From assembly GCA_030830895.1 (NCBI GenBank), contig JAURMC010000005.1, positions 91,030 to 155,029 of the forward strand: DNA of 64,000 nt, written 5' to 3'. The notes under the pieces were generated by a model. It did no database searches. It was not told where the DNA came from and saw only the letters and a list, made by a program, of their open reading frames with translations. This document shows, piece after piece, positions 11,824 to 35,031 of the stretch. Position 1 is the stretch's first letter. Each line of letters begins with the position of its first letter. Both the position numbers and the translations under genes were made by a program. This DNA is from Crocinitomicaceae bacterium (GTDB lineage Bacteria > Bacteroidota > Bacteroidia > Flavobacteriales_D > Crocinitomicaceae).

Positions 11824-14800
11824 TCAATGTGAAACCATGAACCTTAGTTTTTCTCCGTTTTTCATTGAAACAACGTATGTTCCTGAAGATAACATTCCCA
11901 CATGAATAGTTTTTTTGGTATAACCTGTTGAAGGTAAATGTAATACAACACGACCAAGTGCGTCGAGAATTTCCATATCCGACAATAATTCATTTGTAAG
12001 CGACTCAATCGTTAACTCTGAATTCGTTGGGACGGGATAAATCCTTGTTTTCTCTACCTTAAGGTCATCTATGTTCTGAATTCCAAAAGCAAATTGAATG
12101 GATGTTGCTGAACATCCAGAAGGGTATGTAACTTCAACAGTATAGTATCCAGGTGTAATTGGTACATACGATGCCGAATTACTGTTTTGAATCTCTTGAC
12201 CACCAAAATACCATTGATAAGAAATTCCTACTGCACTTGTTGTAAGCGTACCATTATTGAAGGTTATAAGCGGAACTGGAGCATTGTTCGCTGTAATGGA
12301 AACAGAAGAGGAGGTACAAGTCGTAATAATTCCTGAAATAGCATGGGACGTTGATTTACCAGACTCAATGAATGTTGTTCCATGTAATGTTGATATATGT
12401 ATTGGCTCGGAAGTATTCAATCCGGCAGTAAGTTGAGATTCAGTATTATCTCCAAATCCAAACACCGAGTAATCATTTCTTAAAAGCAGGGTGTGGTATT
12501 GGCCACAAGATACACGCTGCACTCCAGAAGTTGCAATTTTCTCGAGGAAATTTCTATCTACATTATCATTTAATCCAAGCTGACCGAAATTATTTTTTCC
12601 TGTAGACCAAACCGTTCCATCTGATTTTAAGATCACTGTAAAATCAGCACCTCCGCTTATCTGAATCGCTTGTTTAAAGGATGAAACAGTGGGAATTAAT
12701 CGATTCAGGTTATCACCTAATCCAAGTTGTCCGTTTGCATTATTACCCCAAACAAACAAATTACCAGAAGAATCTATTGCGAAAGAATGATATTCACCAA
12801 CTCCAATTTTCTCAATGCCCGATAGATTAGGAATCAATACAGGATTCGCCGTAGAATTGAGGTTTCCTAGTCCTAACTGTCCAAAGGTGTTATTTCCAAA
12901 AGCTAGTACAGTTCCATCGCTTTTCAAACACAAGAAGTGCCTTCTTCCACCAACAATAGTATCGATGTTTTGTAAGGTTGGATTTAGGTATGGGAAATTA
13001 TAAATTGACGTATTCCCGGTGCCTAATTGTCCATATGTATTATTACCCCAAACATATACATCCCCCACATTTGTAACAACCATTGCGCTGTTTTCAGAGC
13101 TAGCAAGAGATTTAATTGATGAAAGGGAAGGCATTAACAAAGGGGCGTTGGACGAAGTAAACGTTCCATTTCCAAGCTGACCGTTTGAATTATCACCCCA
13201 AGAGTAAACCTGTCCTGTAGCATCTCTACCAAGTACGAAATTCCATCCGGAAGTAATCTCTTCGAGTGCTAAATTAGCATTCATTTCTGTAGGTTGATTC
13301 CCACTTTGATTGGTACCATCTCCAAACATTCCATTCGCGTTATATCCAAATGAATAGGTTTGATTTAATACCGATGAATGTTGAGTTAATGTTACATTAC
13401 TCGATTGATAAACGACTAACGTAGAATCGGTAGTTTGTGCTATTGGAAGTCCTCCAGTTGTCCATTCATTATTGGAAATTGAGTTAGAGAACAAAATCAC
13501 TGAATCTCCTTCACAAAACGAAAGTGACGAAAAATAAGTAATAACAGGCGATGGCATTACATCGATTACTATGGTATCATTAAATGGCTGATAACATCCC
13601 GTTCCTAGATTAAACGCCGTAAAGGTAACCTGATCATTATCCTGAAAAGTACTGCTACTGATTTGACCTGAAGGCCCAAACGTACCTTGGGAAACCCCAT
13701 TGATATAATATAAGTAAGTTGAACCACCAGTTGCTTGAAAATCTAATGTTGATCCATTACAAATTAATGGTTGTGGCTGCGAAGACAGCGACAAATTCAT
13801 TGAATTAACATTAAAAATAAAGGTATCTATTAAAGACGGGCAGGTTCCATTAAAGCCTTGAACTAATATCGTATCACCATTTAATAAGTTATTTATTGAA
13901 TACTGGCCGTTAGCAGTAACGGTTGGAGATGAACTGTTGTGAACAAAGTTATAGTTTAGCGCACCCGAAGCACTGAAGTTAACAGTATCATGCAAACAAA
14001 TACTTAAATCAATGTCATCACATACTGAAGTGAGAATTGGGTAGGAATAAACGACAAATGTAATTGAATTCGGAGCAGTGGATGAACAACCAAAAGTCTC
14101 GCCTACCACAGTTATTGAATCTCCATTATTTAACATCCCTGTAAAGGTATTATTATTTGAATTCGACCCCACAGGTAATGAATTAACATAAAATTGATAG
14201 TTGTTAGCGCCAGACGCAATCACATTTACCAAATCACCAACACATATTTGATTACCTCCTTGATTAATAAGATTAACATTTGGATAATTATACACATTGA
14301 ATACCAAGGATGGTGAATAATCATTGCAATTCTGATTTGAGCCCAAAACCTCTACCAAGTCATTATCTTGCAAATTATTGAGTGTAATAGTGGGTGTAGA
14401 AGAAGCGGGACCTTGAGAAACACCATTCACGAAAAATTCATAGTTAGTTGCCCCTCCTGCAGTAAATATTACAGGTGTTCCAACACACAATGCTAGATCC
14501 AATTCTGTCGAGGTTAAGGAAGTAATTGGGGTTTGATTCACAATCAATGGAGGAGAGATATTAGTATTCGAACACCCCAAATTGGAGGTTCCAACAACCG
14601 AAATCACGTCTCCATTAGCAAGGGTATTTGATTGGAAAATGTTTACTCCGGATGCTACCCCAATGTTGTTACCATTTAATTCAAACTGATACTGCGAGGC
14701 TCCTGAGGCCGTAAATGTAACATTCTGACCACTACAGATCGTAGCTCCAGCATTACTTTGCAATGAAATTGTTGGATTTGAGTTTATCAATATATTTACG

Positions 14801-17800
14801 GTTGATTGATTTGAACACCCATTGGTTGTCCCTGTAACCTGAAGCACATATGAACCGGCGGGATATGCTTGCATTAGGACGGTATTCTGTGCACTTGGTG
14901 GACCAAGTAATTGCCCATTTAAAATCAACGAATATACTGCTGCTCCACTGGCTTGATAGGTCACATTATCTCCTTGACAAAAAATGTTGTTTGGATCATT
15001 ACTAGTGATGGTAACTGAAGGAATAGGGTTTACTGTAAAGGTCATAGGAGCGGAGGTAGAGGTACAACCCAAGGAATTGCCTAATACAGTAATAGTTTGT
15101 CCGTTGGTAAAGCCATTGGATGTATAGATATTCGTATTACTTAAGCTTCCTTGAGAAGCTCCGTTTAAATAAAATTGGTATTGATTTGCTCCCGAAGCTG
15201 TAATTGAAACGGTATCTCCAGCACAAAAGATATTGTCTAAATCCGAACTTTGTAAGGTAATTACAGGAATTGGGTTTACTTGCACGTTTATTGTAGGACT
15301 TGAAGAAACGCAAGAATTTGCTCCAACACCTTGGATGCTTACTTGATTTGAACCAACTGGTAAATTTGGTGTAAACGAATTTGATGCTTGTTGGGGCCCA
15401 AAAGGAATCCCGTTCAAAAACAACTGATAATTTACAGCTCCCGCTCCAGTAAAGGTGATTGATTGACCTGAACACATTGTGTTCTGCGGATTACTTGAGA
15501 AAATCGGTACTGTAGGCAAGGGGAGGACATTAAATGGAATACTTGAAACAACATTGCACCCATTAATGGTGCCAACCACAGAAACTGTTTGGCCATTCGA
15601 CAATACATTAGTTGTAAAACTATTTAATGGACTGGAGGGCCCTTGGGATATCCCCGCTACAAAAAACTCATAGCTAGAGGCTCCAGAAGCCGTAAAAATA
15701 ACTGGGGTGTTTTGACAAATTGTTGAATCCAAATCATTTGAAATCAATGTAGTATTTGGAACAGGTAAAACCTCAAATAACACCGTATCACTGAAGTTTT
15801 CACACCCATTAAACACGCCCTTAACAAACACCTGGTCATTGTTCGCCAATGCATTGGTATTGTAAGTATTTGTTGCGCTCAAAGGTCCGAGAGGATTCCC
15901 GTTTAAATAGAATTGATAAAGAACCCCGCCTCCTGCATTAAAATTCACTTGGGTTCCTTGGCAAATCGATGTATCAATATCATTAAAGGTTAAGGTTACA
16001 TTGGGCAAACTATTAACAACAAATCCAAATGATTGAGGGGAAAGTGCCGAACATCCAGCAGCAGAAATCCCTATTACTTGTATAGTATCGAAAGTAGTTA
16101 AGGAATCTGTTGTGTAAGGGTTATTTCCGGGAGCCCCAATTGGTATATGATTCAATAGGTATTGATAGCTTGAAGCCCCCCCTCCCGTAAATGTGACGCT
16201 TTGATTGGTGCATATCACGTTGTTTCCTGCTGACTCAGTTAATGTAACCGCTGGTAAGGGATTTACTTGGACTGTAATTGCCGCTGAAGTGTCTACACAT
16301 CCTGTTGTAGTATACTTACCAATAACCCTAATAACGTCTCCATTTGCTAAATTTGCCGATGAATAGTTTGGATTAAAAGAAAACCCCGAAACGGGTACAT
16401 TATTTTTTAAGAATCTATATTGTTGAGCCCCGGAAGCGGTAAAGGTAATGGAGTCCTGTTCACAGATAATGTTATCCAAATCATCCGATGTTATAGTGAC
16501 TACTGGAGCAGGATTCACTGTAAAAATATACGTTGGTTGTTGCGCACTTGAACAACCATTTTGAAAGCTTAAAAAACTTAACGTATCATTATTTTGAATG
16601 GTGGAAATCTGAAGAAGCGTGTCATTTACTGAGGGAGGATTATTCAAAAGAATTCCATTTTGATACCAGCCATAAGTATTTGTATTACTAGAGCTTCCAA
16701 TGGTAAAAGAAACCATTGTCCCTTCACAAATTGTTGTATCCGCATCAGAGGAAATCACAAAAATATCAGGATTATTGATTTGAATCGTACTTTGCATAGT
16801 ATCTAAACAAAAGTTTGAATACTCAGCTACCAACATCACATTGAAACTACCATATCCAGCAAATATGTGTGCATTTGTATCTGGTACACCATTTATAATC
16901 AAAACGCTATCACCAACGCAAGGTGTACAAGGAGTAGGAACACCAACATATCCAGAGTCTGCGTAAAAGGAATTCGTACCATCTCCGAAATACCATAAAA
17001 AATTAACATCATTTGGGTTTCCAGAGAAACTACTTGATGTGTTAGAGAAAAATGTCGTATCGTTATAACAAAACGGTCCAAGCGCACTAAATGCTGCCGA
17101 TACAGCTGGAATAGCTGATAGGCTCCAATTAGCAATTGCGGGAGCCACACCGGAATTCGTTGAAAAATAGGCAGTAAATGTGGCAGACCCATTGGCCCCA
17201 ATTGATTTAAAATCAATGCAACTTGCAGTTACATTTCCTGGGGTATTCTTTACAAAAACAGCAGGAATAGCATTGTTACTGGAGTACAGATAAATGGAAT
17301 CTTGACAATTGCCAACCATAATTAAACTGTCAATAATAGTTTGATTAGACCCTCCTTGAATTTCTATATGGCTTCCAGCTAAAATTCGAAGTTTTTTAAA
17401 CACATTATTTCCCTCAATTTTCTGAGGTTGATTAATGGCAAATGCACCCGCATTTACTGCGTAATTGGGAAAAAATAAAGTAACCTCATTAAATGTTAAA
17501 TTAGCTGTTCTTAGGTTATTTTCAGATGATTGCGATCCAATATATATTTTTGATGTCCCTGCAAAAAATTGAAAGTTGGCGGTAGTACCAATGGAGTTAA
17601 AATTTCTAGAGATATTAACGTTTGAAGTACCAAAGCGTACACGTTGGAATGTGGTTGACAATTGATTGTTTACAGAGAAGTAACCAAAATGAGAATCGAA
17701 ATTCATGGTGTTAAAGCCCCCGTTAAATATTGAGAAATTGACCGAATCAGTCATTTGAAGAGGGCCGTTCAAAATTAAAGAATCCATCGCATCCAACATC

Positions 17801-19215
17801 ACGACACTAATATTGGCGTCGATGACGGAGTTATTTGATGATAATGTCGCTTGATCTCTGAAAATTATAGTCGCAGTAGGGACTCCTTGGATTATTGAAA
17901 GTTGTGAGTCTAGTAATAAATCTCCAAAAGCATACATATCGGTTTGCATTAATCCAACCGTTGGTTGGTTGATTGATGCCCAGGACATGTAGGCAAATTG
18001 AGCGGCTATATCGATTGTGACTTGCTGATTAGGCGATGAGAATGATAAGGCATCAAAATATACTGAATCTAATTTTCCAGGAAAGCAAGTTGTTGCAGGT
18101 CCTCCAGAAGCAAGGGACCAATGGGTGCCACTGGAGTAATTACCCGCGTTGCCTATCCAATAAAACTTAGACCCTTGATAATTCCATCCGCTTGAAAAAT
18201 TTGTGGTGTCTGAAAGTTTCAACTGGTAAACCTGAGAAGGCGCAACGATGGGTTGCAAACGATTGATTGAAAGAAATGCCCCAGAAAATACTGAGTAGCC
18301 GGTTTTAAAAATCCTCGCTACGGGGCCAATAGCGGAAGTTGCTTTTAACTGAGTTTTGTTTGAGCATGTGCCCAAAGTAATTAACGAATCCACATACAAG
18401 GTATCACCATTATTAATATTGATAGTATTTCCTGCCGGAATGGATTCTATTAGATTAAAGTGGTTGCTGTTTATCAATGATACGGCTCCTGCGTTCAAGC
18501 GCAATTCGTTGTAATTTTTTCCGCCACCTGTAAATACTGACGTACCTGAGTTTGCAAGGGTAATTCTTCCATTCGTATGAACTAGTGTAAAATTAGTCGA
18601 GGCAACATTCCAAACCGTGCCTGTAAGGTTAAGAATCGTATTGGTGAGATTTAACATTCTAAATGACGATCCCAAGGAATAGAAGTTGGCGATGCTTGAA
18701 TTGGAACCAATTAAATTAATTGTCCCCGAATCTAAATACAAATCTGAGCCTGAACTAATGACACCGATATTCAAAATACCATTTCCAGACATTTTTATAT
18801 CGTTGGTCCAATTGCGTCCATTTGAAATAATGGATCCTGTATTGTTAGTTGTCAAATTCCAAAACCCTGTCCAACCGGGAAAAGTAGGGCTTACGGAGGC
18901 TATAAGTGAGGTTGAAACCGTTATAAATGGTAAGGCACATTGAAATTGAAACGGGATATTTGCTCCGGAGAAATCAAACGTTTGAACGCTTACAGTAGTA
19001 TCCAAGATTATAATACTTGCTGCTACCAAACCAGAATTGGCATCAAAATAAACAGAATCATTAGCCGTAGGAATAATCCCTGCAGTAAATCCACCTGATG
19101 AATTAGACCAGTGGGTTGGGGATGACCATGAACCGCTTCCTCCAATCCAATATAGGGAGCCCGCCTTAACAATACAAGTAATAAACAGGATATTGAGGAA
19201 TAATATTCGTTTCAT
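11824..19215 (-). CDS. giant secreted surface protein: tandem Ig-like/PKD-like repeats, RCC1 propeller, T9SS type A sorting domain
   Basis: 2463-aa single ORF with signal peptide; about 14 repeats of the type ICxGxxVxFTASGAxxYxFxLNG; seven RCC1-like blades (VWGNNxxGQLGxG); C-term IYPVPTNSELTIESL...GTYVVSMKNGEKLRFMVSH. Confidence 0.93.
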   Translation of the reverse strand: MKRILFLNILFITCIVKAGSLYWIGGSGSWSSPTHWSNSSGGFTAGIIPTANDSVYFDANSGLVAASIIILDTTVSVQTFDFSGANIPFQFQCALPFITVSTSLIASVSPTFPGWTGFWNLTTNNTGSIISNGRNWTNDIKMSGNGILNIGVISSGSDLYLDSGTINLIGSNSSIANFYSLGSSFRMLNLTNTILNLTGTVWNVASTNFTLVHTNGRITLANSGTSVFTGGGKNYNELRLNAGAVSLINSNHFNLIESIPAGNTININNGDTLYVDSLITLGTCSNKTQLKATSAIGPVARIFKTGYSVFSGAFLSINRLQPIVAPSQVYQLKLSDTTNFSSGWNYQGSKFYWIGNAGNYSSGTHWSLASGGPATTCFPGKLDSVYFDALSFSSPNQQVTIDIAAQFAYMSWASINQPTVGLMQTDMYAFGDLLLDSQLSIIQGVPTATIIFRDQATLSSNNSVIDANISVVMLDAMDSLILNGPLQMTDSVNFSIFNGGFNTMNFDSHFGYFSVNNQLSTTFQRVRFGTSNVNISRNFNSIGTTANFQFFAGTSKIYIGSQSSENNLRTANLTFNEVTLFFPNYAVNAGAFAINQPQKIEGNNVFKKLRILAGSHIEIQGGSNQTIIDSLIMVGNCQDSIYLYSSNNAIPAVFVKNTPGNVTASCIDFKSIGANGSATFTAYFSTNSGVAPAIANWSLSAIPAVSAAFSALGPFCYNDTTFFSNTSSSFSGNPNDVNFLWYFGDGTNSFYADSGYVGVPTPCTPCVGDSVLIINGVPDTNAHIFAGYGSFNVMLVAEYSNFCLDTMQSTIQINNPDIFVISSDADTTICEGTMVSFTIGSSSNTNTYGWYQNGILLNNPPSVNDTLLQISTIQNNDTLSFLSFQNGCSSAQQPTYIFTVNPAPVVTITSDDLDNIICEQDSITFTASGAQQYRFLKNNVPVSGFSFNPNYSSANLANGDVIRVIGKYTTTGCVDTSAAITVQVNPLPAVTLTESAGNNVICTNQSVTFTGGGASSYQYLLNHIPIGAPGNNPYTTDSLTTFDTIQVIGISAAGCSALSPQSFGFVVNSLPNVTLTFNDIDTSICQGTQVNFNAGGGVLYQFYLNGNPLGPLSATNTYNTNALANNDQVFVKGVFNGCENFSDTVLFEVLPVPNTTLISNDLDSTICQNTPVIFTASGASSYEFFVAGISQGPSSPLNSFTTNVLSNGQTVSVVGTINGCNVVSSIPFNVLPLPTVPIFSSNPQNTMCSGQSITFTGAGAVNYQLFLNGIPFGPQQASNSFTPNLPVGSNQVSIQGVGANSCVSSSPTINVQVNPIPVITLQSSDLDNIFCAGDTVSITASGANQYQFYLNGASQGSLSNTNIYTSNGFTNGQTITVLGNSLGCTSTSAPMTFTVNPIPSVTITSNDPNNIFCQGDNVTYQASGAAVYSLILNGQLLGPPSAQNTVLMQAYPAGSYVLQVTGTTNGCSNQSTVNILINSNPTISLQSNAGATICSGQNVTFTASGASQYQFELNGNNIGVASGVNIFQSNTLANGDVISVVGTSNLGCSNTNISPPLIVNQTPITSLTSTELDLALCVGTPVIFTAGGATNYEFFVNGVSQGPASSTPTITLNNLQDNDLVEVLGSNQNCNDYSPSLVFNVYNYPNVNLINQGGNQICVGDLVNVIASGANNYQFYVNSLPVGSNSNNNTFTGMLNNGDSITVVGETFGCSSTAPNSITFVVYSYPILTSVCDDIDLSICLHDTVNFSASGALNYNFVHNSSSPTVTANGQYSINNLLNGDTILVQGFNGTCPSLIDTFIFNVNSMNLSLSSQPQPLICNGSTLDFQATGGSTYLYYINGVSQGTFGPSGQISSSTFQDNDQVTFTAFNLGTGCYQPFNDTIVIDVMPSPVITYFSSLSFCEGDSVILFSNSISNNEWTTGGLPIAQTTDSTLVVYQSSNVTLTQHSSVLNQTYSFGYNANGMFGDGTNQSGNQPTEMNANLALEEITSGWNFVLGRDATGQVYSWGDNSNGQLGNGTFTSSNAPLLMPSLSSIKSLASSENSAMVVTNVGDVYVWGNNTYGQLGTGNTSIYNFPYLNPTLQNIDTIVGGRRHFLCLKSDGTVLAFGNNTFGQLGLGNLNSTANPVLIPNLSGIEKIGVGEYHSFAIDSSGNLFVWGNNANGQLGLGDNLNRLIPTVSSFKQAIQISGGADFTVILKSDGTVWSTGKNNFGQLGLNDNVDRNFLEKIATSGVQRVSCGQYHTLLLRNDYSVFGFGDNTESQLTAGLNTSEPIHISTLHGTTFIESGKSTSHAISGIITTCTSSSVSITANNAPVPLITFNNGTLTTSAVGISYQWYFGGQEIQNSNSASYVPITPGYYTVEVTYPSGCSATSIQFAFGIQNIDDLKVEKTRIYPVPTNSELTIESLTNELLSDMEILDALGRVVLHLPSTGYTKKTIHVGMLSSGTYVVSMKNGEKLRFMVSH
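12340..13370 (-). other. RCC1-like seven-blade propeller segment inside the giant ORF
   Basis: Seven blade motifs read in order: SFGYNANGMFGDG, SWGDNSNGQLGNG, VWGNNTYGQLGTG, AFGNNTFGQLGLG, VWGNNANGQLGLG, STGKNNFGQLGLN, GFGDNTESQLTAG. Boundaries approximate. Confidence 0.85.
13500..16760 (-). repeat. protein-level tandem Ig-like repeat array (about 14 units of ~70-85 aa)
   Basis: Repeated signature [SD]xDxxICxGxxVxFTASGAxxYxFxLNGxxxG counted by eye; boundaries approximate. Confidence 0.8.
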
Positions 19216-24460: not shown

Positions 24461-27400
24461 ATGAAGTACATAAAGACATTTTTCTTTTCATTAATATTTT
24501 TCCTTACTTGGGGAATTAATACCCCACCACCTTGCCCATCATTGATTATGTCTGGATCAAATGTTAGTTGTTTTGGCCAGTCTAATGGTTCAGCCTTGGT
24601 TTCTGTTTCGGGTGGCAGTGGAAACTATTCTATAAGTTGGTCAAACGGAAATAATACGGCTAGTAATTTCGGACTAGGTGTAGGGACATATACCGTTAAT
24701 GTTATTGACAATATTTCAGGGTGTTCCGTAAATGGAGCTTATGTAGTATCTGCACCAAGCCCTATAAGTAATTCTGGTGTAATTTCAAATGTAAATTGTT
24801 TTGGAGGATCGACAGGTGGCGTAAATATTACACCCTTAGGTGGAACGGCTCCCTATTCATATGTTTGGACGAACTCCTTGGGAAATACTGTTTCGACAAT
24901 ACAAGATTTATCCAACGTTTCCGCAGGAACATATACCGTTCAAATTACAGACAATAATGGGTGTACCTTATCCAACAGTTATCAAGTGACACAACCGAAT
25001 CAAATGTTAAACAATTCAGCGGTACTTAGTAATGTAAGTTGCTACAGTGGAACCAATGGTTCAATCGATTTACAGGTATGGGGAGGAACCGTTCCATATA
25101 CCTATTTGTGGAATACAGGCTCAAGCAACCAAGACATCACGGGACTAACCGTAGGTAATTATTCTGTTACGATTACTGACAACAAAGGATGTATGAAAAC
25201 ATCGAATTACAGTATAACACAACCAACAATTATTACTTCCCAAATGAACCCGACAACGGTTTCATGTTTTGGGTTCTCCAATGGAATTGCATCGGTCACA
25301 GCAAGTGGCGGAACCCCTCCGTATGACTACAATTGGCAAAATACCAATACGGTATATGCACAAAATAGTGCCACACTAACTAACGTGCCTTCAGATACCT
25401 ATACCGTACAAATAACAGATGCCAACGGTTGTACTATTTCCAATTCAACCACGATAACTCAGCCAAGTGTAGTTTCTAGCTCATTGACATTTACAAATGT
25501 TAGTTGTCATGGAGGTAACGATGGAAATATTAATTTAAGTGTTAGTGGAGGGATTGCTCCATACGTATATGCATGGGTAAATGCCTCTAATCAGAATATA
25601 GCAGTATCTCAAGATTTACTTCAAATTCCAGCAGATACCTTTACGGTTACCATTACAGATGCCAATGGATGTATTTCATCGATGAACCAAATAATATCAG
25701 AACCTGAATTTCCATTGACCTCTACTTCAAATGTTACAAACGTTTTATGTTTTGGTAATTCTACAGGCACAATTTCAATAAATGCCCTAGGTGGAACAGT
25801 CCCTTACACATATAATTGGTTAAGCGGACAAAATACATCAACCATTTCAAACTTAACCGCCGGATCTTATTCCTTTACTATCACGGACTTTAATGGATGT
25901 AATACTTCAGGTATTTTGAATGTTACTCAGCCTAATGCTCCATTGAGTATTACAAACTCATTGGTAAATGTTACATGTAATGGTTTCATGGATGGGTCCA
26001 TTAATACCTCTGTGTCTGGAGGGACATTACCTTATGATTTCAATTGGTCGAACAGCATTTATTTATTAGCATATAACACCGAGGATTTAATTTCAATTCC
26101 CGCAGAAACGTATACTGTACTTGTAGTTGATAATCATGGGTGTTCAATTGCAGATACCTTTACAATAACAGAACCAACTGCATTAAATAATTCTATAATT
26201 GGGGTTAATATACTGTGTCATGGTGAAAGTACAGGAAGCATTAATTTGAGTGTATTTGGAGCAACTCCACCTTATTCATATGTTTGGAATAATGGCATCA
26301 CATCTGAAGATCAAACTTCCGTTCCAGCTGGTTCATACCAAGTAACGATAACTGATGCAAATGGGTGTATAAAACTTGACTCTATCGAGTTATCAGAACC
26401 ACTATTTCCAATTACCTATTCCTACACAACGTCAGAAGTTACTTGCCGAGATGGTAACAACGGTTCTATTGAATTAATGGTTTCCGGCGGTACTCCACTA
26501 TATACATATAGCTGGACTAATGGATCAAATAATGCCTTAAACGACTCTCTTACTGCAGGAGTATATTCATTCCTTGTAACGGATGCCAATGGCTGCACCG
26601 TTATCGATTCAATCACTATTTCTCAACCAGATGCGCTTACAATCAACGAATTAATAACCCCTGTTTCTTGTTATGGATTCAGCGATGGGGTCATTGATTT
26701 GACTACCCTTGGCGGAACACCTCCCTATCAGTTTACTTGGTTTAATTCTACGTTTGCCTTATCTGCGCAAACGGAAGATTTAATAGACTTCCCAAAGGAC
26801 ACTTATCAAGTTGAAATTATTGATTCCAATGGTTGTTTTTATGAATATTTCCTAATGCTTCCTCAGCCTGACTCACTCTACATTACCACAAATGAAATAA
26901 TGGTAACGTGTTATGGCGGGTCGGATGGCGCGATTGATATCTCTGTATTCGGAGGAAACCCCGGATATATCTTTCTTTGGTCCAATGGTGAAACAACCGA
27001 GGACATTAATGATTTAACTGCGGGAATATATGACGTACTTGTTTCCGACACAAAGAATTGTATAGACTCTGCGGAGATTATTATTATTTCACCAGAACCA
27101 ATAAGCAGTAACATTACGACCACAGCCGTAAGTTGTATAGACCAAGCAGATGGTAGCGCCTTGGTAGAAGCAACAGGTGGTGTTGGGTCATTTACTTATT
27201 TGTGGTCAAATGGAACGACAAATTCACTCAATGAATCTTTGTCTAATACCCTGTATTCAGTGCTTATTACGGATGCTTTAGGATGTACAGGAATCGATTC
27301 TGTAATCGTTCCTATTAACCCAATTGCTTGTATTGATCCAGTAAATTGCTTTACACCAAATGACGACCAAATAAACGATACTTGGGTGATTGATAATTTG

Positions 27401-27595
27401 GAATTATATCCTGATTTAAGCCTAACCATTTTCAACAAATGGGGAAATTTAGTATTTGAACAAAAGGGCACCTATTCGCCATGGGACGGAACTTACGACA
27501 CCAAAGAATTGCCAGCTGGAACCTACTATTACATCATTAATTTAAATTATTTAGACAGAGCTCCTGTCACTGGAACAATCAACATTTTAAAATGA
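24461..27595 (+). CDS. SprB-repeat surface adhesin with gliding motility-associated C-terminal domain (paralogue)
   Basis: 1044 aa; signal peptide followed almost directly by 12 SprB repeats; CTD NCFTPNDDQINDTWVIDNLELYPDLSLTIFNKWGNLVFEQKGTYSPWDGTY. Confidence 0.93.
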   Translation: MKYIKTFFFSLIFFLTWGINTPPPCPSLIMSGSNVSCFGQSNGSALVSVSGGSGNYSISWSNGNNTASNFGLGVGTYTVNVIDNISGCSVNGAYVVSAPSPISNSGVISNVNCFGGSTGGVNITPLGGTAPYSYVWTNSLGNTVSTIQDLSNVSAGTYTVQITDNNGCTLSNSYQVTQPNQMLNNSAVLSNVSCYSGTNGSIDLQVWGGTVPYTYLWNTGSSNQDITGLTVGNYSVTITDNKGCMKTSNYSITQPTIITSQMNPTTVSCFGFSNGIASVTASGGTPPYDYNWQNTNTVYAQNSATLTNVPSDTYTVQITDANGCTISNSTTITQPSVVSSSLTFTNVSCHGGNDGNINLSVSGGIAPYVYAWVNASNQNIAVSQDLLQIPADTFTVTITDANGCISSMNQIISEPEFPLTSTSNVTNVLCFGNSTGTISINALGGTVPYTYNWLSGQNTSTISNLTAGSYSFTITDFNGCNTSGILNVTQPNAPLSITNSLVNVTCNGFMDGSINTSVSGGTLPYDFNWSNSIYLLAYNTEDLISIPAETYTVLVVDNHGCSIADTFTITEPTALNNSIIGVNILCHGESTGSINLSVFGATPPYSYVWNNGITSEDQTSVPAGSYQVTITDANGCIKLDSIELSEPLFPITYSYTTSEVTCRDGNNGSIELMVSGGTPLYTYSWTNGSNNALNDSLTAGVYSFLVTDANGCTVIDSITISQPDALTINELITPVSCYGFSDGVIDLTTLGGTPPYQFTWFNSTFALSAQTEDLIDFPKDTYQVEIIDSNGCFYEYFLMLPQPDSLYITTNEIMVTCYGGSDGAIDISVFGGNPGYIFLWSNGETTEDINDLTAGIYDVLVSDTKNCIDSAEIIIISPEPISSNITTTAVSCIDQADGSALVEATGGVGSFTYLWSNGTTNSLNESLSNTLYSVLITDALGCTGIDSVIVPINPIACIDPVNCFTPNDDQINDTWVIDNLELYPDLSLTIFNKWGNLVFEQKGTYSPWDGTYDTKELPAGTYYYIINLNYLDRAPVTGTINILK

Positions 27596-28548
27596 GAAAT
27601 ACACTATATACCATCGCGATTCTGTTAGGAATTACCCTTCAAGTAAACGCCCAGCAAGTCTCCTTAAATTCGCAATATTTATTCAATGAATATATTCTTA
27701 ATCCGGGTGCGGTTGGATCCAAGGACTATACACCGGTTCAGTTGAATTTCAGAAAACAATGGACTAATTTTCCAGGTGCACCTACTACTCAATTTCTAAC
27801 TGCCCATGGTGGAGTAGCAGATAAAATGGGGATAGGAGCAAATATTTACAACGATTTAGCTGGTCCAAGTAGAAGAACTGGTGTGACATTTTCGGGTGCT
27901 TATCACCTACAATTAGATAAAGCGTATAATCACAAATTAGGCTTGGGGTTAGGTTTATCATTCACTCAACATTTTATTGATATAAATAAACTTGACACCT
28001 ATGTTGATAATGATCCAACGGTGCTTAAAGGATTCAACAATCAATTTGTTCCCGATGCCAATGCTGGTATTTTTTATCATTACAAGAACAAAGGTTTTGC
28101 AGGCATTTCAGCCTATAACCTGGTTCAAGTAAGTCGTGACTTATTCAACTTCGATTCAAGTATTAACAGCCCCTTGGTTCGTCATTATTATTTTATTGGT
28201 GGATATCATTTTGAAATCACCAAGAACTTTGGCATAAAGCCAACCATCATGGCTCAAGCAATTGAAGCGGGAGTATTTCAAATTGATGGAACCTTACTCT
28301 TTACCTTTAATAAGTACTTTTGGATAGGAGGTTCATACAGACACAATGCTGATTTGGTAGGATTAATTGGGGGGCAAGTAGGACCGCTAAAATTTGGATA
28401 TTCCTATGATTTTACTTTGTCTGATATTGCTAGATATTCTAATGGGTCGCACGAAGTATTTTTGGAATTACAGATTCGAACAAAGAAAACAGAAGACACT
28501 TCAATTCCTTGGTTAAAAAGAAATAGGATATACAATACGGGTAATTAA
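27592..28548 (+). CDS. PorP/SprF family type IX secretion-associated outer membrane protein
   Basis: SLNSQYLFNEYILNPGAVGSKDYTPVQLNFRKQWTNFPGAPTTQFLTAHG is the PorP/SprF N-terminal signature. Confidence 0.95.
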   Translation: MRNTLYTIAILLGITLQVNAQQVSLNSQYLFNEYILNPGAVGSKDYTPVQLNFRKQWTNFPGAPTTQFLTAHGGVADKMGIGANIYNDLAGPSRRTGVTFSGAYHLQLDKAYNHKLGLGLGLSFTQHFIDINKLDTYVDNDPTVLKGFNNQFVPDANAGIFYHYKNKGFAGISAYNLVQVSRDLFNFDSSINSPLVRHYYFIGGYHFEITKNFGIKPTIMAQAIEAGVFQIDGTLLFTFNKYFWIGGSYRHNADLVGLIGGQVGPLKFGYSYDFTLSDIARYSNGSHEVFLELQIRTKKTEDTSIPWLKRNRIYNTGN

Positions 28549-30167
28549 TGAAGGTTCTTTTCTCCATTTTTATTTTTACGGCATTTGTTAGTATAGGGCA
28601 GACGCTTGAAGAAGCAGATCAATTATTTAATCGCTATGAATATTCGAAAGCAATTAATACCTATGAGAAGCACCTTGGGAATAATAAGCTCTCATTAAAT
28701 CAAGTTAAAAATTTAACTTTTTCTTATTTCAGTGTTGGTGATTTTGATCGAACTTACAGCATGACCGATTCCTTGGTGAAATCTTCGAATATCGAGTCAT
28801 TTTTCATCTACGCACACGGATATTCTGCCTATGCCATAGGAAAGTATGATGTAGCTAAAAAGTATCTGACAATCTATCGATCGAAGGAAAAAAACACAGA
28901 CTTAGATCAATTAATAAAGGCAACCGAAGAGATTAATTCATGGAATAAAGAACCAATTGAATATCTTTCCTCATTTTCAAATAATAGCGCTCGAGCTGAG
29001 TCGTCAGTAGCCGTTTGGAAAGGGCGCTTGATAAGTTTAAAAGAAAAGGGAATTACAAAAACCGCAGAAAGCGACAAACTTTCCGATTTATCCAGTTCTG
29101 AGTTCTTGTACAAGGTGCCGTATTTAGTTAATTCATCTGACTCGGCTTGGCAAGAAATTATTATAATGAATCCGCCTATTCGATATATGACATTAAATGC
29201 CATTTCAATAAGTGAACAAGGAACTGTACTTTGTAATGTTAGCGGTTACGACCAAAACGGAAAGTATGTCGAACCGAAAAATTACATCGGAATGCTTACT
29301 GACAAATTAACCCTTGAAAACTTAAATCTTTTTCTTCCCGATGATAGTCTATTATTCACCGGAATAGCCATCAACCAGAGTGGAAATCAGGCTGTATTTA
29401 GCGCGAAATCAAGATTACAAAAAGACAGTGACTTATATACTTCAGAATTAATAGATGGTAAATGGTCTAGGCCCACTCTTGCCATTTCATGGAATACAAG
29501 CGGAAACGAAGCTTTTCCAGTATTTAGCGGAGACTCAACCCTTTATTTTTCGAGTGATGGAAGGATGGGATATGGTGGATTAGACATCTACGCTGCCCAA
29601 ATTAGCTCTGCAATGGATGGCATAGTTACACATCTCCCATTTCCGATCAATAGTGCATCAGATGATTTTGGTATGTGTAAAATTAATTCTGACTCTTTAG
29701 TCTTTACCTCTAATAGAGTTAATGGCCATGGAGATGATGATGTTTGGAAATATATTTACCCTAAAATTCCAGAAATAGTAATTATAAAGGACAGCGTTGA
29801 TACATTGCCAAATATCCCGTATGTAAGTGTAAAAAACATGGTTTTTTACTTTGATTTTGACAGTTATTCTGTTAAGGAAATTCCGGACAGCCTTTCTGAA
29901 TTCATTTCATTTTTAAATACTAAAGAAGCATATAAACTAATATTAGTTGGGCGAACGGATCACAATGGGTCCTTAAAATACAACAATAATTTGGGAGAAA
30001 TGCGTGCTAAAGCCGTGGCCAATTTACTCATTGCTAAAGGTGTTGATTCTAACAAATTACAATTAATCTCTAAAGGTAAAACTGATCCAATTGTTCGTTG
30101 CTCTCCTTGCGATGCTGCATCCAACGCGAAAAATAGAGTCGTTAATATTGACATAGTTATTCCCTAG
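28548..30167 (+). CDS. OmpA family protein with TPR-like and PD40/WD40-like regions
   Basis: C-terminal OmpA domain FDFDSYSVKEIPDSL...GRTDHNGSLKYNNNLGEMRAKAVANLL; central GDSTLYFSSDGRMGYGGLDIY (PD40-like). Confidence 0.92.
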   Translation: MKVLFSIFIFTAFVSIGQTLEEADQLFNRYEYSKAINTYEKHLGNNKLSLNQVKNLTFSYFSVGDFDRTYSMTDSLVKSSNIESFFIYAHGYSAYAIGKYDVAKKYLTIYRSKEKNTDLDQLIKATEEINSWNKEPIEYLSSFSNNSARAESSVAVWKGRLISLKEKGITKTAESDKLSDLSSSEFLYKVPYLVNSSDSAWQEIIIMNPPIRYMTLNAISISEQGTVLCNVSGYDQNGKYVEPKNYIGMLTDKLTLENLNLFLPDDSLLFTGIAINQSGNQAVFSAKSRLQKDSDLYTSELIDGKWSRPTLAISWNTSGNEAFPVFSGDSTLYFSSDGRMGYGGLDIYAAQISSAMDGIVTHLPFPINSASDDFGMCKINSDSLVFTSNRVNGHGDDDVWKYIYPKIPEIVIIKDSVDTLPNIPYVSVKNMVFYFDFDSYSVKEIPDSLSEFISFLNTKEAYKLILVGRTDHNGSLKYNNNLGEMRAKAVANLLIAKGVDSNKLQLISKGKTDPIVRCSPCDAASNAKNRVVNIDIVIP

Positions 30168-30802: not shown

Positions 30803-31737
30803 CGTTGATTGGTTTTATTCTCAAAGTTAAGCTTTCCTGTGGTTAAATACACGCCAAAAAGGATAATAAGCATAAAAACAAGGGTTGTTTGATTAATGGC
30901 ATGAGTATAATCTGCTGACCAACCGATCAGAAAGAAGAAAAAAGAAAAGGCGATTACAAAAATCGGCTGCACATATATATAGACGGCAGTTATGGTTGAA
31001 GAAACATATTTCAACCCAACCACTGTAAGTAAATATGTTAGAAAAGTCACTGCGACAACCACAAAAACAATTTTTGCCCAAATTGGTGCAGGTATCATTC
31101 CTATATTTGTTTGAGGTAAATCTATGTATACTTGAGGAAATAACGCCAAAAAAATACTGCCAAATGAGAATACCCAGGTAATTACATGAAGTGGATTATA
31201 CTTCTGCATTAAAGGTTTAACGGCAATTAAATAAATTGCATAACTTAATGAATTACCGATTAATAACCAATCGCCAATTTTTGATTCAAAGCTTTTTGAT
31301 CCATAAGTTGTTAATGCAATTGCACCAAGAGAACCTATGAATATACCAACCCATTGGGTGCGTTGAAGCCGTTCCTTTAACCAGAAATAAGAAAGAACGG
31401 CCACCATTATTGGATTAATCGCCATAATTATACCTGCATTCATTGGGGATGATGCGTTTAGTCCATGAAAAAACAAGAGTTGATTAACAGTAACCCCGAA
31501 AAGGCCACAGACAACCAAACGCATCAAATCAACCCGTTCAAATGGCTTAATTCTCGTGAAGATGGAAACTATCCAAAAAAGGACAACCGCTCCTACAACT
31601 CTAAATAAGATAAAAACAGTTGGAGATAAAAACACAGGCATTACACCTTTAGCCAACACATGACTTGCCCCATATATCAGGTTAACTAATAACAACGCAA
31701 AAGCTGCCCATTGTTCCTTATTCTTCGCTATCGCCAA
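30799..31737 (-). CDS. EamA/DMT family transporter
   Basis: 312 aa, ten hydrophobic segments in two EamA-like halves. Confidence 0.9.
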   Translation of the reverse strand: MAIAKNKEQWAAFALLLVNLIYGASHVLAKGVMPVFLSPTVFILFRVVGAVVLFWIVSIFTRIKPFERVDLMRLVVCGLFGVTVNQLLFFHGLNASSPMNAGIIMAINPIMVAVLSYFWLKERLQRTQWVGIFIGSLGAIALTTYGSKSFESKIGDWLLIGNSLSYAIYLIAVKPLMQKYNPLHVITWVFSFGSIFLALFPQVYIDLPQTNIGMIPAPIWAKIVFVVVAVTFLTYLLTVVGLKYVSSTITAVYIYVQPIFVIAFSFFFFLIGWSADYTHAINQTTLVFMLIILFGVYLTTGKLNFENKTNQR

Positions 31738-32321
31738 AATAAAAAGCGGGGTTTAATTATGGGCTCTCTAAATTCATCCAATTTCTCAGTCATGCCTTTA
31801 TCCATGATTCGTTGAATAAATTTATTCATCCCTCGGGCTTCTTTTACATCCTTCTCAATGCTAAAAATAGGAGTAAGCCCTTTAAAGTAGCAGAAATTTT
31901 CTCCCAATTTTACCGGTGTTTTAAATTCCTCAATTGCTATTGGATCCATAAGTAACAATGCTGAAAATCCACGTTGATTAAATCTGCTAGCAGGAAGTTC
32001 CCCAAAACTAAATGTATTTCCCGATATAGCCCAAGCGCCGGATTTAATATAATTCTTTGTTGCAATTAATCGGTTAATAGACCATGTAAATAATTCATTT
32101 TCCAGCGTATCTTCCCAATAATCAGGAAGCAAGAAATACAACTCTATATGTGCTTCATTCTCATACTTGGAAGGAACCGGCATTCGATATTTCCCTAAAT
32201 CCGTAGTAAAAACAACAATACCCCGAATGCCGTTGAGTTTTACAACGCCTAATGTTTCATCACCTACCTTTATGTTTTTAATCGGTTCTTTAAAGCGTTC
32301 TTCTAATGACTTAAGAATCAT
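31728..32321 (-). CDS. suppressor of fused (SUFU) domain-containing protein
   Basis: 197 aa; HIELYFLLPDYWEDTL...WSINRLIATKNYIKSGAWAISGNTFSFG...GFSALLLMDP...FCYFKGLTPIFSIEKDVKEARGMNKFIQRIMDKG resembles bacterial SUFU domains. Confidence 0.72.
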   Translation of the reverse strand: MILKSLEERFKEPIKNIKVGDETLGVVKLNGIRGIVVFTTDLGKYRMPVPSKYENEAHIELYFLLPDYWEDTLENELFTWSINRLIATKNYIKSGAWAISGNTFSFGELPASRFNQRGFSALLLMDPIAIEEFKTPVKLGENFCYFKGLTPIFSIEKDVKEARGMNKFIQRIMDKGMTEKLDEFREPIIKPRFLFWR

Positions 32322-32325
32322 GAAA

Positions 32326-33306
32326 TTAAAAGTTTTTAAGGTAACTCGTATCGGTTAGGGCACCTAAAAACAATATAAGCTGCATCTTTTCCATTTTGGT
32401 TAATTGAAACGGTTTAATGCTAGGGTGCTGTCCTTTCGAATGTTTTCCACCTGCTATGTAATGATCGATCACCTGATCCAAAGTAGTTAAACTACCATCA
32501 TGCATATACGGGTATGTGAGGGCAATATTTCGCAAGGTTGGAGTCTTAAAAAACCCAATGTCTGCACTATCTAAATTGATTCTAAAACGGCCTTTATCTG
32601 ATCCATAATCCTGGTAAAGCCCATTATTTTCTGCTTTAAAATTGGTAAAATACGGTGCAGGATGACAGGTAGAACAATACAAGGAGTTAAATAACTTCAT
32701 TCCTGCGATTTGATCGCTTGTCAAGGCATTCTTACGGCCTTTTATGTACCGGTCATATGGACTGTTCAAAGAAATTAATGATCTCTCAAATGCGGCAATA
32801 CTTCGCGTTAAAACCCATGCATCAAAATCTCGATTAAAGATCTTCTTTGCCGCATGCTGGTATACTGAAACTGATTTTAATTTAGGTATTAATACTTTCA
32901 TATTATGTCCCATTTCAGTAGGTTCTTGTATGGGAACAAGAACCTGTAATTCCAATGTTTTAAGATGTGCATCAAACATGACCGTTTGTAAAAAAACGCT
33001 GTTGAGTAATGTTGGGGCATTACGCTCAGGGTGCTTTCCTTCTATTCCGTCACTTACCATTTTTCTATCGGTAAACGCGTATTTAGGATTATGACAATCA
33101 GCGCAAGCAATGGATTCATCCCGCGATAAGCGCTTATCAAAAAACAACGCGCGGCCTAATTCTATTTTTTGGGCTGAAGGGGGGTTGTCGGATGGAAATG
33201 GATATTCCTTACTCAAATCCTCCGGAGACTCACATGAGTACAAAAGCCAGCAAATCAAAATACCGCCAAGGTAATAAGATTTAATCACGGATTTATTATA
33301 ATACAT
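32326..33306 (-). CDS. diheme cytochrome c peroxidase/MauG family lipoprotein, MbnH-like
   Basis: Two heme motifs CADCH and CSTCH; lipobox-like WLLYSC; adjacent to an MbnP-like gene. Confidence 0.9.
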   Translation of the reverse strand: MYYNKSVIKSYYLGGILICWLLYSCESPEDLSKEYPFPSDNPPSAQKIELGRALFFDKRLSRDESIACADCHNPKYAFTDRKMVSDGIEGKHPERNAPTLLNSVFLQTVMFDAHLKTLELQVLVPIQEPTEMGHNMKVLIPKLKSVSVYQHAAKKIFNRDFDAWVLTRSIAAFERSLISLNSPYDRYIKGRKNALTSDQIAGMKLFNSLYCSTCHPAPYFTNFKAENNGLYQDYGSDKGRFRINLDSADIGFFKTPTLRNIALTYPYMHDGSLTTLDQVIDHYIAGGKHSKGQHPSIKPFQLTKMEKMQLILFLGALTDTSYLKNF

Positions 33307-34256
33307 TGCTTGCTTATTGTAACACGATCCGCTGAATCAAATACTGTTACAAAATAATTTCCTGATTTTAAATCCAAAGATACAGAACCATTGTCTCCTG
33401 TCAGATTTCCCGATGACACCAATCTTCCTGACAAATCATATACCTTAAAAGAAGCATATGCTAATTCCGTCCAATGAATTGTTACTCCATCAACCCAAAA
33501 TTTCGGGTTACTTCCGGTAATTAACCCTGCTGAGGTTGGCTGAGTAAATACATTGTAGGTTGTAACATTAGCCATAATGGTTTCATTTAATCCTGTCTCG
33601 TTATGCAACACCCCTACCGTTGACAAAGGCATATCTCTTAACCATTCATCCACGTTGCATGTCAAATATAAATCCATTTGTGTTGCATTTGTATGTGTTT
33701 CTATGACTGGCATTTGTATCGTATGTTGATTATGATCCCCTAAATTGTGCATTTCAAAATAAGCATCTGGATTTTGATCATTATTGCTATCTGCCTCACC
33801 ACCAACGATCATGTGCATGTAACCGAATTGCCACCCCCAATACATGGTGGGATTCTGAAAACTCAAAGGGTGTGTAACTGGATAGCTTGAAATATCAACA
33901 GCTTCAGCTCCGGATTGGGTATTTAACCTCGCTGGAACTCCTACCATAAACTGTATGCTTTCCAAGTCTTGAATATTATAGTTCCCAAGGAAGTAGCCAA
34001 ATTGATCAGGGGTGAATAAAAAGACATTTGTAGAAACATTGGTTTGAACTCCTCCATCATGGAATAGAATAATATCCGACACATAGTAATTAAAATGGTC
34101 AAAATTTACAACCACACCATCGTTACCGATATACATGGTGTTTAATTCAAATGGCGCTTCATTAAACGAAGGATTAATATGTATAAAAACGTCTTTCTGT
34201 GCTGCTATTTTATAACATGACACAACGAATAAAACGATTAAAATCAAATGTTTCAT
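33285..34256 (-). CDS. MbnP-like protein with probable T9SS type A C-terminal sorting domain
   Basis: FNYYVSDIILFHDGG, PTMYWGWQFGYMHMIVGGEAD, AYFEMHNLGDH are MbnP-like; C-term SFKVYDLSGRLVSSGNLTGDNGSVSLDLKSGNYFVTVFD is sorting-domain-like. Start set at MKHLILIVLF. Confidence 0.85.
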   Translation of the reverse strand: MKHLILIVLFVVSCYKIAAQKDVFIHINPSFNEAPFELNTMYIGNDGVVVNFDHFNYYVSDIILFHDGGVQTNVSTNVFLFTPDQFGYFLGNYNIQDLESIQFMVGVPARLNTQSGAEAVDISSYPVTHPLSFQNPTMYWGWQFGYMHMIVGGEADSNNDQNPDAYFEMHNLGDHNQHTIQMPVIETHTNATQMDLYLTCNVDEWLRDMPLSTVGVLHNETGLNETIMANVTTYNVFTQPTSAGLITGSNPKFWVDGVTIHWTELAYASFKVYDLSGRLVSSGNLTGDNGSVSLDLKSGNYFVTVFDSADRVTISKQCIIINP

Positions 34257-34257
34257 T

Positions 34258-35031
34258 TTATTGTTTTTTAGCAATATATAATACCTCATCAGCAGAAATT
34301 CTGAATTTATCAAAAACTTCTGAACTCAGATGGTTTTTTAACCAAAATTCTTCTACCTCAAATCCAGCACGTTTTAGATAATCCGGATAATCCCGCCCGA
34401 ACAATCGAACATGATCTTTCTGCCAATAATATCTTTCACGCTCTTTAGGGGAAGTTATAGTAGGATCTTCCAGTGTTTTCTCTCTGGAAATATCTTGAGG
34501 CACCTGCATAATAGCCCAGCCACCTGGCTTCATTACCCGAAACAATTCACGCATGCATTGATTCGGATCTTTTACATGTTCCATAACGTGGTTACAAAAT
34601 ACCACATCAAAGCGATTATTCTCCAAAGGAATTTGATGCAAATCAAAATGCATGTCTGCGATTGGAGAAACAATATCGGCGGTTAAATATTCAAGATTTA
34701 ATTGTTGTTTGAAGCGGTCTATGAAGCACTGTTCTGGGGCTATATGCAAAATCGCTAAAGATGGTGCAGTAAAAAAGGTGCTATGGTCTCTTAGATATAA
34801 CCACATCAAACGATGGCGCTCTAGGGTAAGATCATAAGGACAAAGCACATTTTCTCGGTGTGCCACATCTGAACCATATGATAGAAATTTTGAAAACTTA
34901 CGGTCACATACTGGACATTCTACCTTATTCCCTCGATACAACAAAGGCGCAAATTGCTTAAAAACATAGCTCAATCGGATCAACAAGGGCCGCGGCAATG
35001 TATTTAATAAAAATTTATATACCCTTTTCAC
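34258..35031 (-). CDS. class I SAM-dependent methyltransferase
   Basis: ILHIAPEQCF, YLTADIVSPIADMHFDLHQIPLENNRFDVVFCNHVMEHVKDPNQCMRELFRVMKPGGWAIM. Confidence 0.9.
   Translation of the reverse strand: MKRVYKFLLNTLPRPLLIRLSYVFKQFAPLLYRGNKVECPVCDRKFSKFLSYGSDVAHRENVLCPYDLTLERHRLMWLYLRDHSTFFTAPSLAILHIAPEQCFIDRFKQQLNLEYLTADIVSPIADMHFDLHQIPLENNRFDVVFCNHVMEHVKDPNQCMRELFRVMKPGGWAIMQVPQDISREKTLEDPTITSPKERERYYWQKDHVRLFGRDYPDYLKRAGFEVEEFWLKNHLSSEVFDKFRISADEVLYIAKKQ

Follow-up and report, generated by a model that had tools for sequence, protein, structure and literature searches.

A conserved MbnP/MbnH-type gene pair in Bacteroidota combines a predicted type IX secretion cargo with a diheme enzyme lacking the inter-heme tryptophan

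Do two overlapping genes in a Crocinitomicaceae genome encode an MbnP/MbnH-type system whose MbnP is routed through the type IX secretion system (T9SS)? The question was raised by an earlier note on the window, the 64,000-nucleotide stretch of DNA analyzed here, which read the locus as a diheme MauG-family gene overlapping by 22 bp an MbnP-like gene with a sorting-domain-like tail. The open reading frame coordinates bear out this layout. An MbnP-family gene of class A, that is, T9SS-tailed (33285..34256, 323 aa, ATG at 34256), runs into the gene for a diheme MauG/MbnH-type enzyme of a Trp-less clade (32326..33306, 326 aa), with the end of mbnP and the start of mbnH sharing 22 bp at 33285..33306; both genes, and all of their features described below, lie on the minus strand. 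The quoted motifs CADCH, CSTCH, FNYYVSDI (MbnP residues 55–62) and YWGWQFGYMHM (MbnP residues 139–149), as well as the tail, are all found as written.

Profile searches support the identity of both proteins. MbnP matches the Pfam MbnP family PF20243, the match that the note had named as a test of its reading, with 83.5 bits (E 2.3e-23; gathering cut-off 27). MbnH matches the CCP_MauG family PF03150 with 170 bits (E 5.9e-50) and carries two CxxCH motifs, in keeping with its description as a diheme MauG-family enzyme. Scores with the equivalog models fall below their cut-offs, at 34.2 bits for MbnP with TIGR04052 (cut-off 140) and 251.9 bits for MbnH with TIGR04039 (cut-off 362.85). The AlphaFold2 model of the window MbnP (63 aligned sequences, pLDDT 89.7) consists of a beta-rich core to approximately residue 240, a loose linker in which residues 246–248 have pLDDT <50, and a seven-strand domain spanning residues 252–320. 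When this model was searched with Foldseek, six chains of 7L6G, the M. trichosporium MbnP, ranked first (E 5e-7 to 4e-6) with a probability of 1.0 and whole-chain TM-scores of just 0.43–0.49. It was Foldseek that settled this match: phmmer with MbnP alone returned chance-level PDB matches only, and a profile search recovered 7L6G weakly. For MbnH, the top Foldseek match was 6E1C (TM 0.82), the solved structure of a MauG-like copper-homeostasis protein. The conserved MbnP/MbnH-type pair is real. Since neither protein reaches its equivalog cut-off, and since a four-Cys motif and an inter-heme Trp were both sought and found absent, we file the pair as a variant form that probably works like MbnP/MbnH, and not as an equivalog. 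The homology and the T9SS routing proposed in the earlier note are supported; the MbnH, lacking that Trp, is not canonical.

The routing of MbnP is predicted from several observations. Residues 250–323 (33288..33509) match the T9SS type A C-terminal sorting domain TIGR04183 with 34.5 bits (cut-off 23); the Pfam counterpart PF18962 scored 21.3, below its cut-off of 27. In the model, this tail folds as a domain distinct from the core, behind the low-confidence linker, as the note had expected of a genuine sorting domain. The window genome (1.6 Mb assembled, 64% complete) encodes PorU (1256 bits) and SprA (2341 bits) together with 52 type A tails above cut-off. TIGR04183 was matched in 32 of the 39 long-form MbnPs sampled; a set of 51, made up of 50 short MbnPs and the window MbnP as control, gave one match, the best E-value being that of the window protein. 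At the N-terminus, residues 1–19 (MKHLILIVLFVVSCYKIAA; 34200..34256) form a hydrophobic helix in the model and are a candidate export signal. We regard the window MbnP as a probable T9SS cargo; in the literature searched we found no paper naming both MbnP and type IX secretion. Elsewhere in the window, at 24461-30167, a protein with a T9SS type B tail clusters with a PorP/SprF-family protein and an OmpA/PD40 protein, and positions 11824-19215 encode a 2463-aa protein with a type A tail and otherwise without identity here.

Which residues of MbnP might be modified, and which might bind copper? The earlier note had proposed the W residues of WGWQ as candidate modification sites and had looked to an alignment for the conserved Trp and copper ligands. 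Both Trp of the WxW motif W140-G141-W142 (33831..33839) are conserved, each being kept in 111 of 112 MbnPs, and His170 (33747..33749), a candidate copper ligand, in 110 of 110 that could be scored; all three are invariant across 141 MbnPs having an assigned MbnH. A further candidate ligand, His218 (33603..33605), is present in all 86 MbnPs that occur with a Trp-less MbnH, and the column is His in 31 and Met in 20 of the 55 MbnPs without one. The four-Cys motif for which 7L6G is termed a ‘four-Cys motif protein’ is absent, the mature window MbnP having Cys200 in its core and one Cys in its tail. The Kyn-x-His copper motif of CorA/MopE was likewise not found, W140-G-W142 being present instead. 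The copper site of CorA is formed by Kyn62, His64 and His114 (PMC3912023), so that two His and an oxidized Trp would, by analogy, be a sensible model for the MbnP site.

In MbnH, the two heme motifs, CADCH (residues 68–72, 33091..33105) and CSTCH (residues 211–215, 32662..32676), are invariant in 152 MbnHs. Tyr283 (32458..32460), the counterpart of the MauG axial Tyr294, aligns with that residue and with the Tyr of 6E1C; as a control, the column holds Met in two peroxidase-like proteins (G289, G116). Distal Gln121, Pro125 and Glu131 are kept, spaced as Gln103, Pro107 and Glu113 of MauG, and the MbnH alignments show full conservation of the heme ligands and the distal pocket. By alignment, Phe111 (32974..32976) replaces the inter-heme Trp, which is Trp93 in MauG and is a Trp also in M. 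trichosporium MbnH. Among 75 class A first MbnHs, the position is occupied by Phe in 60, Tyr in 2, Arg in 6, Ser in 2, Met in 1 and Trp in 4. A tree of 80 MbnHs is divided by one branch (SH-aLRT 100) into 40 with and 40 without the Trp; the Trp state changes once on this tree, a number as low as in 0 of 500 shuffles. Given the Trp in MauG, in bacterial peroxidases and in 6E1C, we infer that its absence is the derived state. The lipobox-like LLYSC ending in Cys25 (33232..33234) looks acceptable from its sequence, and the Cys is nearly invariant in A4. Across class A MbnH N-termini (for example L222:7282-8259) the anchor Cys is kept, often after Arg, Lys or Met, and with such odd residues before the Cys in many MbnHs of the group, their location is uncertain.

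The pairing extends well beyond the window. Its genome encodes three MbnPs by PF20243, one T9SS-tailed, one lipoprotein-like (L002) and one plain secreted (L003), and behind each lies an MbnH of its own. No MauG-family gene beyond these three partners was found in the genome; the partners of the lipoprotein-like and the plain secreted MbnP are of the Trp type. Across 37 genomes of the genus, its own included, MbnP and MauG-family counts are equal in 29 (Spearman 0.90), and the remaining 8 have one MauG-family gene extra. The arrangement is found in dozens of relatives, MbnH nearly always lying directly downstream of MbnP. Tailed MbnPs are spread over several families of the phylum: the profile finds matches in 35 of 297 genomes, and about a dozen of these matches are full length. 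In a tree of tail-free MbnP cores, all 41 tailed proteins lie beyond one branch (SH-aLRT 99), a single clade compatible with the tail having arisen once.

Tail and enzyme type go together. Counting loci, which are not independent events, 81 tailed MbnPs have an adjoining MbnH, which is of the Trp-less type only in 71, of both types in 9 and of the Trp type only in one (L064, at a contig end); short MbnPs mostly have the Trp-type MbnH alone (55). In distant families, the gene order MbnP, Trp-less MbnH, Trp-type MbnH recurs (L243, L244, L245, L247, L248, L252), a Trp-less MbnH stands alone in L246, L249 and L251, and in L250 a lipoprotein-like MbnP with a Trp-type MbnH adjoins a longer MbnP (320 aa) with a Trp-less one. 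A distant 346-aa MbnP at L253:2509-3606 has just one MbnH after it, which is of the Trp type and bears the motif FFWDGGVGDLDLF. Two apparent exceptions were set aside: an MbnP–MbnH fusion in L187 reflects an assembly gap of Ns, and short loci with a lone Trp-less MbnH beside a lipoprotein MbnP mostly end before the second MbnH, longer loci showing the tandem. In genome G025 (98% complete), the single MbnP is tailed and the single MauG-family gene is Trp-less, which makes the Trp-less enzyme the sole candidate found there.

Of 74 class A loci, 64 have a gene for a class I methyltransferase (34258..35031, minus strand, in the window) directly upstream of the tailed MbnP, mostly at a gap of a few bases. 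We treated it as synteny and not as a pathway member, since in other families it is usually single-copy and away from MbnP. On the other side of the pair, MbnH is followed by a SUFU-domain protein (31728-32321) and then an EamA transporter; near the tailed MbnP of relatives, a SUFU match was seen in six and an EamA match in six. Two genomes (G006, G021) lack the tailed MbnP and have the Trp-less MbnH directly after the methyltransferase, the order of SUFU and EamA behind it being unchanged. At L217:2752-3768 and L218:3163-4167, an intact Trp-less MbnH directly follows the methyltransferase and no tailed MbnP intervenes.

Taken together, a model for the pair emerges, to which we give somewhat better than even credence: a dedicated protein-modification system in which MbnP is a copper protein oxidized by MbnH and exported by the T9SS. 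MbnP would be exported by Sec and would then fold in the periplasm, where the membrane-associated diheme MbnH, using a peroxide-level oxidant, would oxidize a Trp of the WxW motif, most likely to kynurenine. Kynurenine, His170 and His218 would complete the copper site, after which the C-terminal domain would pass the folded MbnP to the T9SS (SprA/PorU) for delivery to the cell surface or the medium, where it may scavenge or buffer copper. As this MbnH belongs to the Trp-less clade, its two hemes would have to share charge without the usual Trp relay. The model proceeds from computational observations, namely the homology and folds of both proteins, their pairing, the tail and T9SS, and the missing Trp; from these we infer kynurenine formation, copper binding, secretion and the order of events. 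The tight pairing, the matched gene counts, the retention of WxW, His170, the axial Tyr and the distal residues, and G025 speak for it. So does BthA, in which Ser occupies the inter-heme position and a stable bis-Fe(IV) state forms (PMC6405878), so that loss of the Trp alone need not mean loss of function. Against it stand the equivalog scores, the absence of an inter-heme Trp considered necessary in MauG, the two genomes with a Trp-less MbnH and no tailed MbnP, and three tailed MbnPs without a neighboring MbnH (L073, L171, L201). We extend the model only tentatively, rating it somewhat short of even, to a Bacteroidota-wide branch of T9SS-secreted copper proteins matured by a Trp-less diheme clade that makes kynurenine. 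The tandems of Trp-less and Trp-type MbnHs in many lineages would fit two successive oxidations of WxW.

The missing Trp admits a different division of labor, in which a Trp-type MbnH encoded elsewhere oxidizes MbnP in trans and the Trp-less MbnH is an electron carrier or partner. In MauG, the inter-heme Trp is reported to be needed for bis-Fe(IV) stabilization and substrate oxidation (PMC6405878), the window genome does encode two Trp-type MbnHs elsewhere, and both types stand in tandem in many families. We nevertheless consider this unlikely, as only the Trp-less type stands beside 71 of the 81 tailed MbnPs, G025 has no other MauG-family gene that we could find, and the heme ligands and distal pocket of MbnH are fully conserved.

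MbnH may also act on MbnP and yield another product, such as a hydroxylated or cross-linked WxW Trp pair or a redox-active radical site, in a protein whose role is not copper binding. Both Trp of WxW are conserved, whereas CorA has Kyn-x-His, MauG itself cross-links two Trp, and no copper gene was recognized among the neighbors of the pair that were examined. The fold and the WxW are nevertheless common to MbnP 7L6G, and copper binding in that family needs kynurenine, going by the title of a 2021 PNAS paper cited in PMC9426467; such a product is, in our estimate, rather improbable. A further reading, that of an ordinary diheme peroxidase which detoxifies peroxide and merely adjoins MbnP, we hold to be very improbable. 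Bacterial peroxidases do rank high in a PDB sequence search with MbnH, and the enzyme remains in the two genomes that lack the tailed MbnP; against this reading, its axial ligand is Tyr and not Met, the genome counts of MbnP and MauG-family genes are near one-to-one, and 6E1C is the best match both for the whole fold and for the C-terminal half.

If the favored model of an MbnH-oxidized, T9SS-exported copper protein holds, Bacteroidota carry on their cell surface a copper site that is made post-translationally, far outside the methanotrophs. The Trp-less clade would also allow a natural test of whether heme oxidation over long range depends on an inter-heme Trp, a requirement raised by MauG and contradicted, among the literature found, only by BthA; where a genome has a single MbnP and a single Trp-less MbnH, the question can be tested directly.

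Among known systems, the M. trichosporium MbnP/MbnH pair (7L6G, 6E1C) shares with the window pair its adjacency, the WxW motif, both folds, two CxxCH motifs, the axial Tyr and the distal Gln, Pro and Glu. Unlike it, the window MbnP has a T9SS tail and lacks a four-Cys motif in its core, its MbnH is without the inter-heme Trp, and the pair scores below the equivalog cut-offs and lies away from any methanobactin operon. CorA/CorB and MopE/SACCP of methanotrophs offer an analogy, in that a surface copper protein with a diheme partner is predicted here as well; the CorA/MopE type has a site of two His and kynurenine (PMC3912023), whereas the window MbnP has WxW in place of Kyn-x-His and would reach the surface via a T9SS domain. 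With MauG of Paracoccus denitrificans, the window MbnH shares the axial Tyr, the same distal residues and, by prediction, the role of a diheme oxidant of protein Trp; it differs in having Phe in place of Trp93, and the MauG substrate is methylamine dehydrogenase. BthA of Burkholderia thailandensis is likewise a MauG-like diheme protein with a Tyr ligand and no inter-heme Trp (Ser257 in BthA; PMC6405878), yet it is only 22% identical to the window MbnH, ranks 47 in the fold search and is not linked to an MbnP in that report. Lastly, like T9SS type A cargo, the window MbnP has a C-terminal sorting domain above cut-off that forms a separate beta domain, in a genome that encodes a T9SS; what sets it apart is that the cargo is an MbnP.
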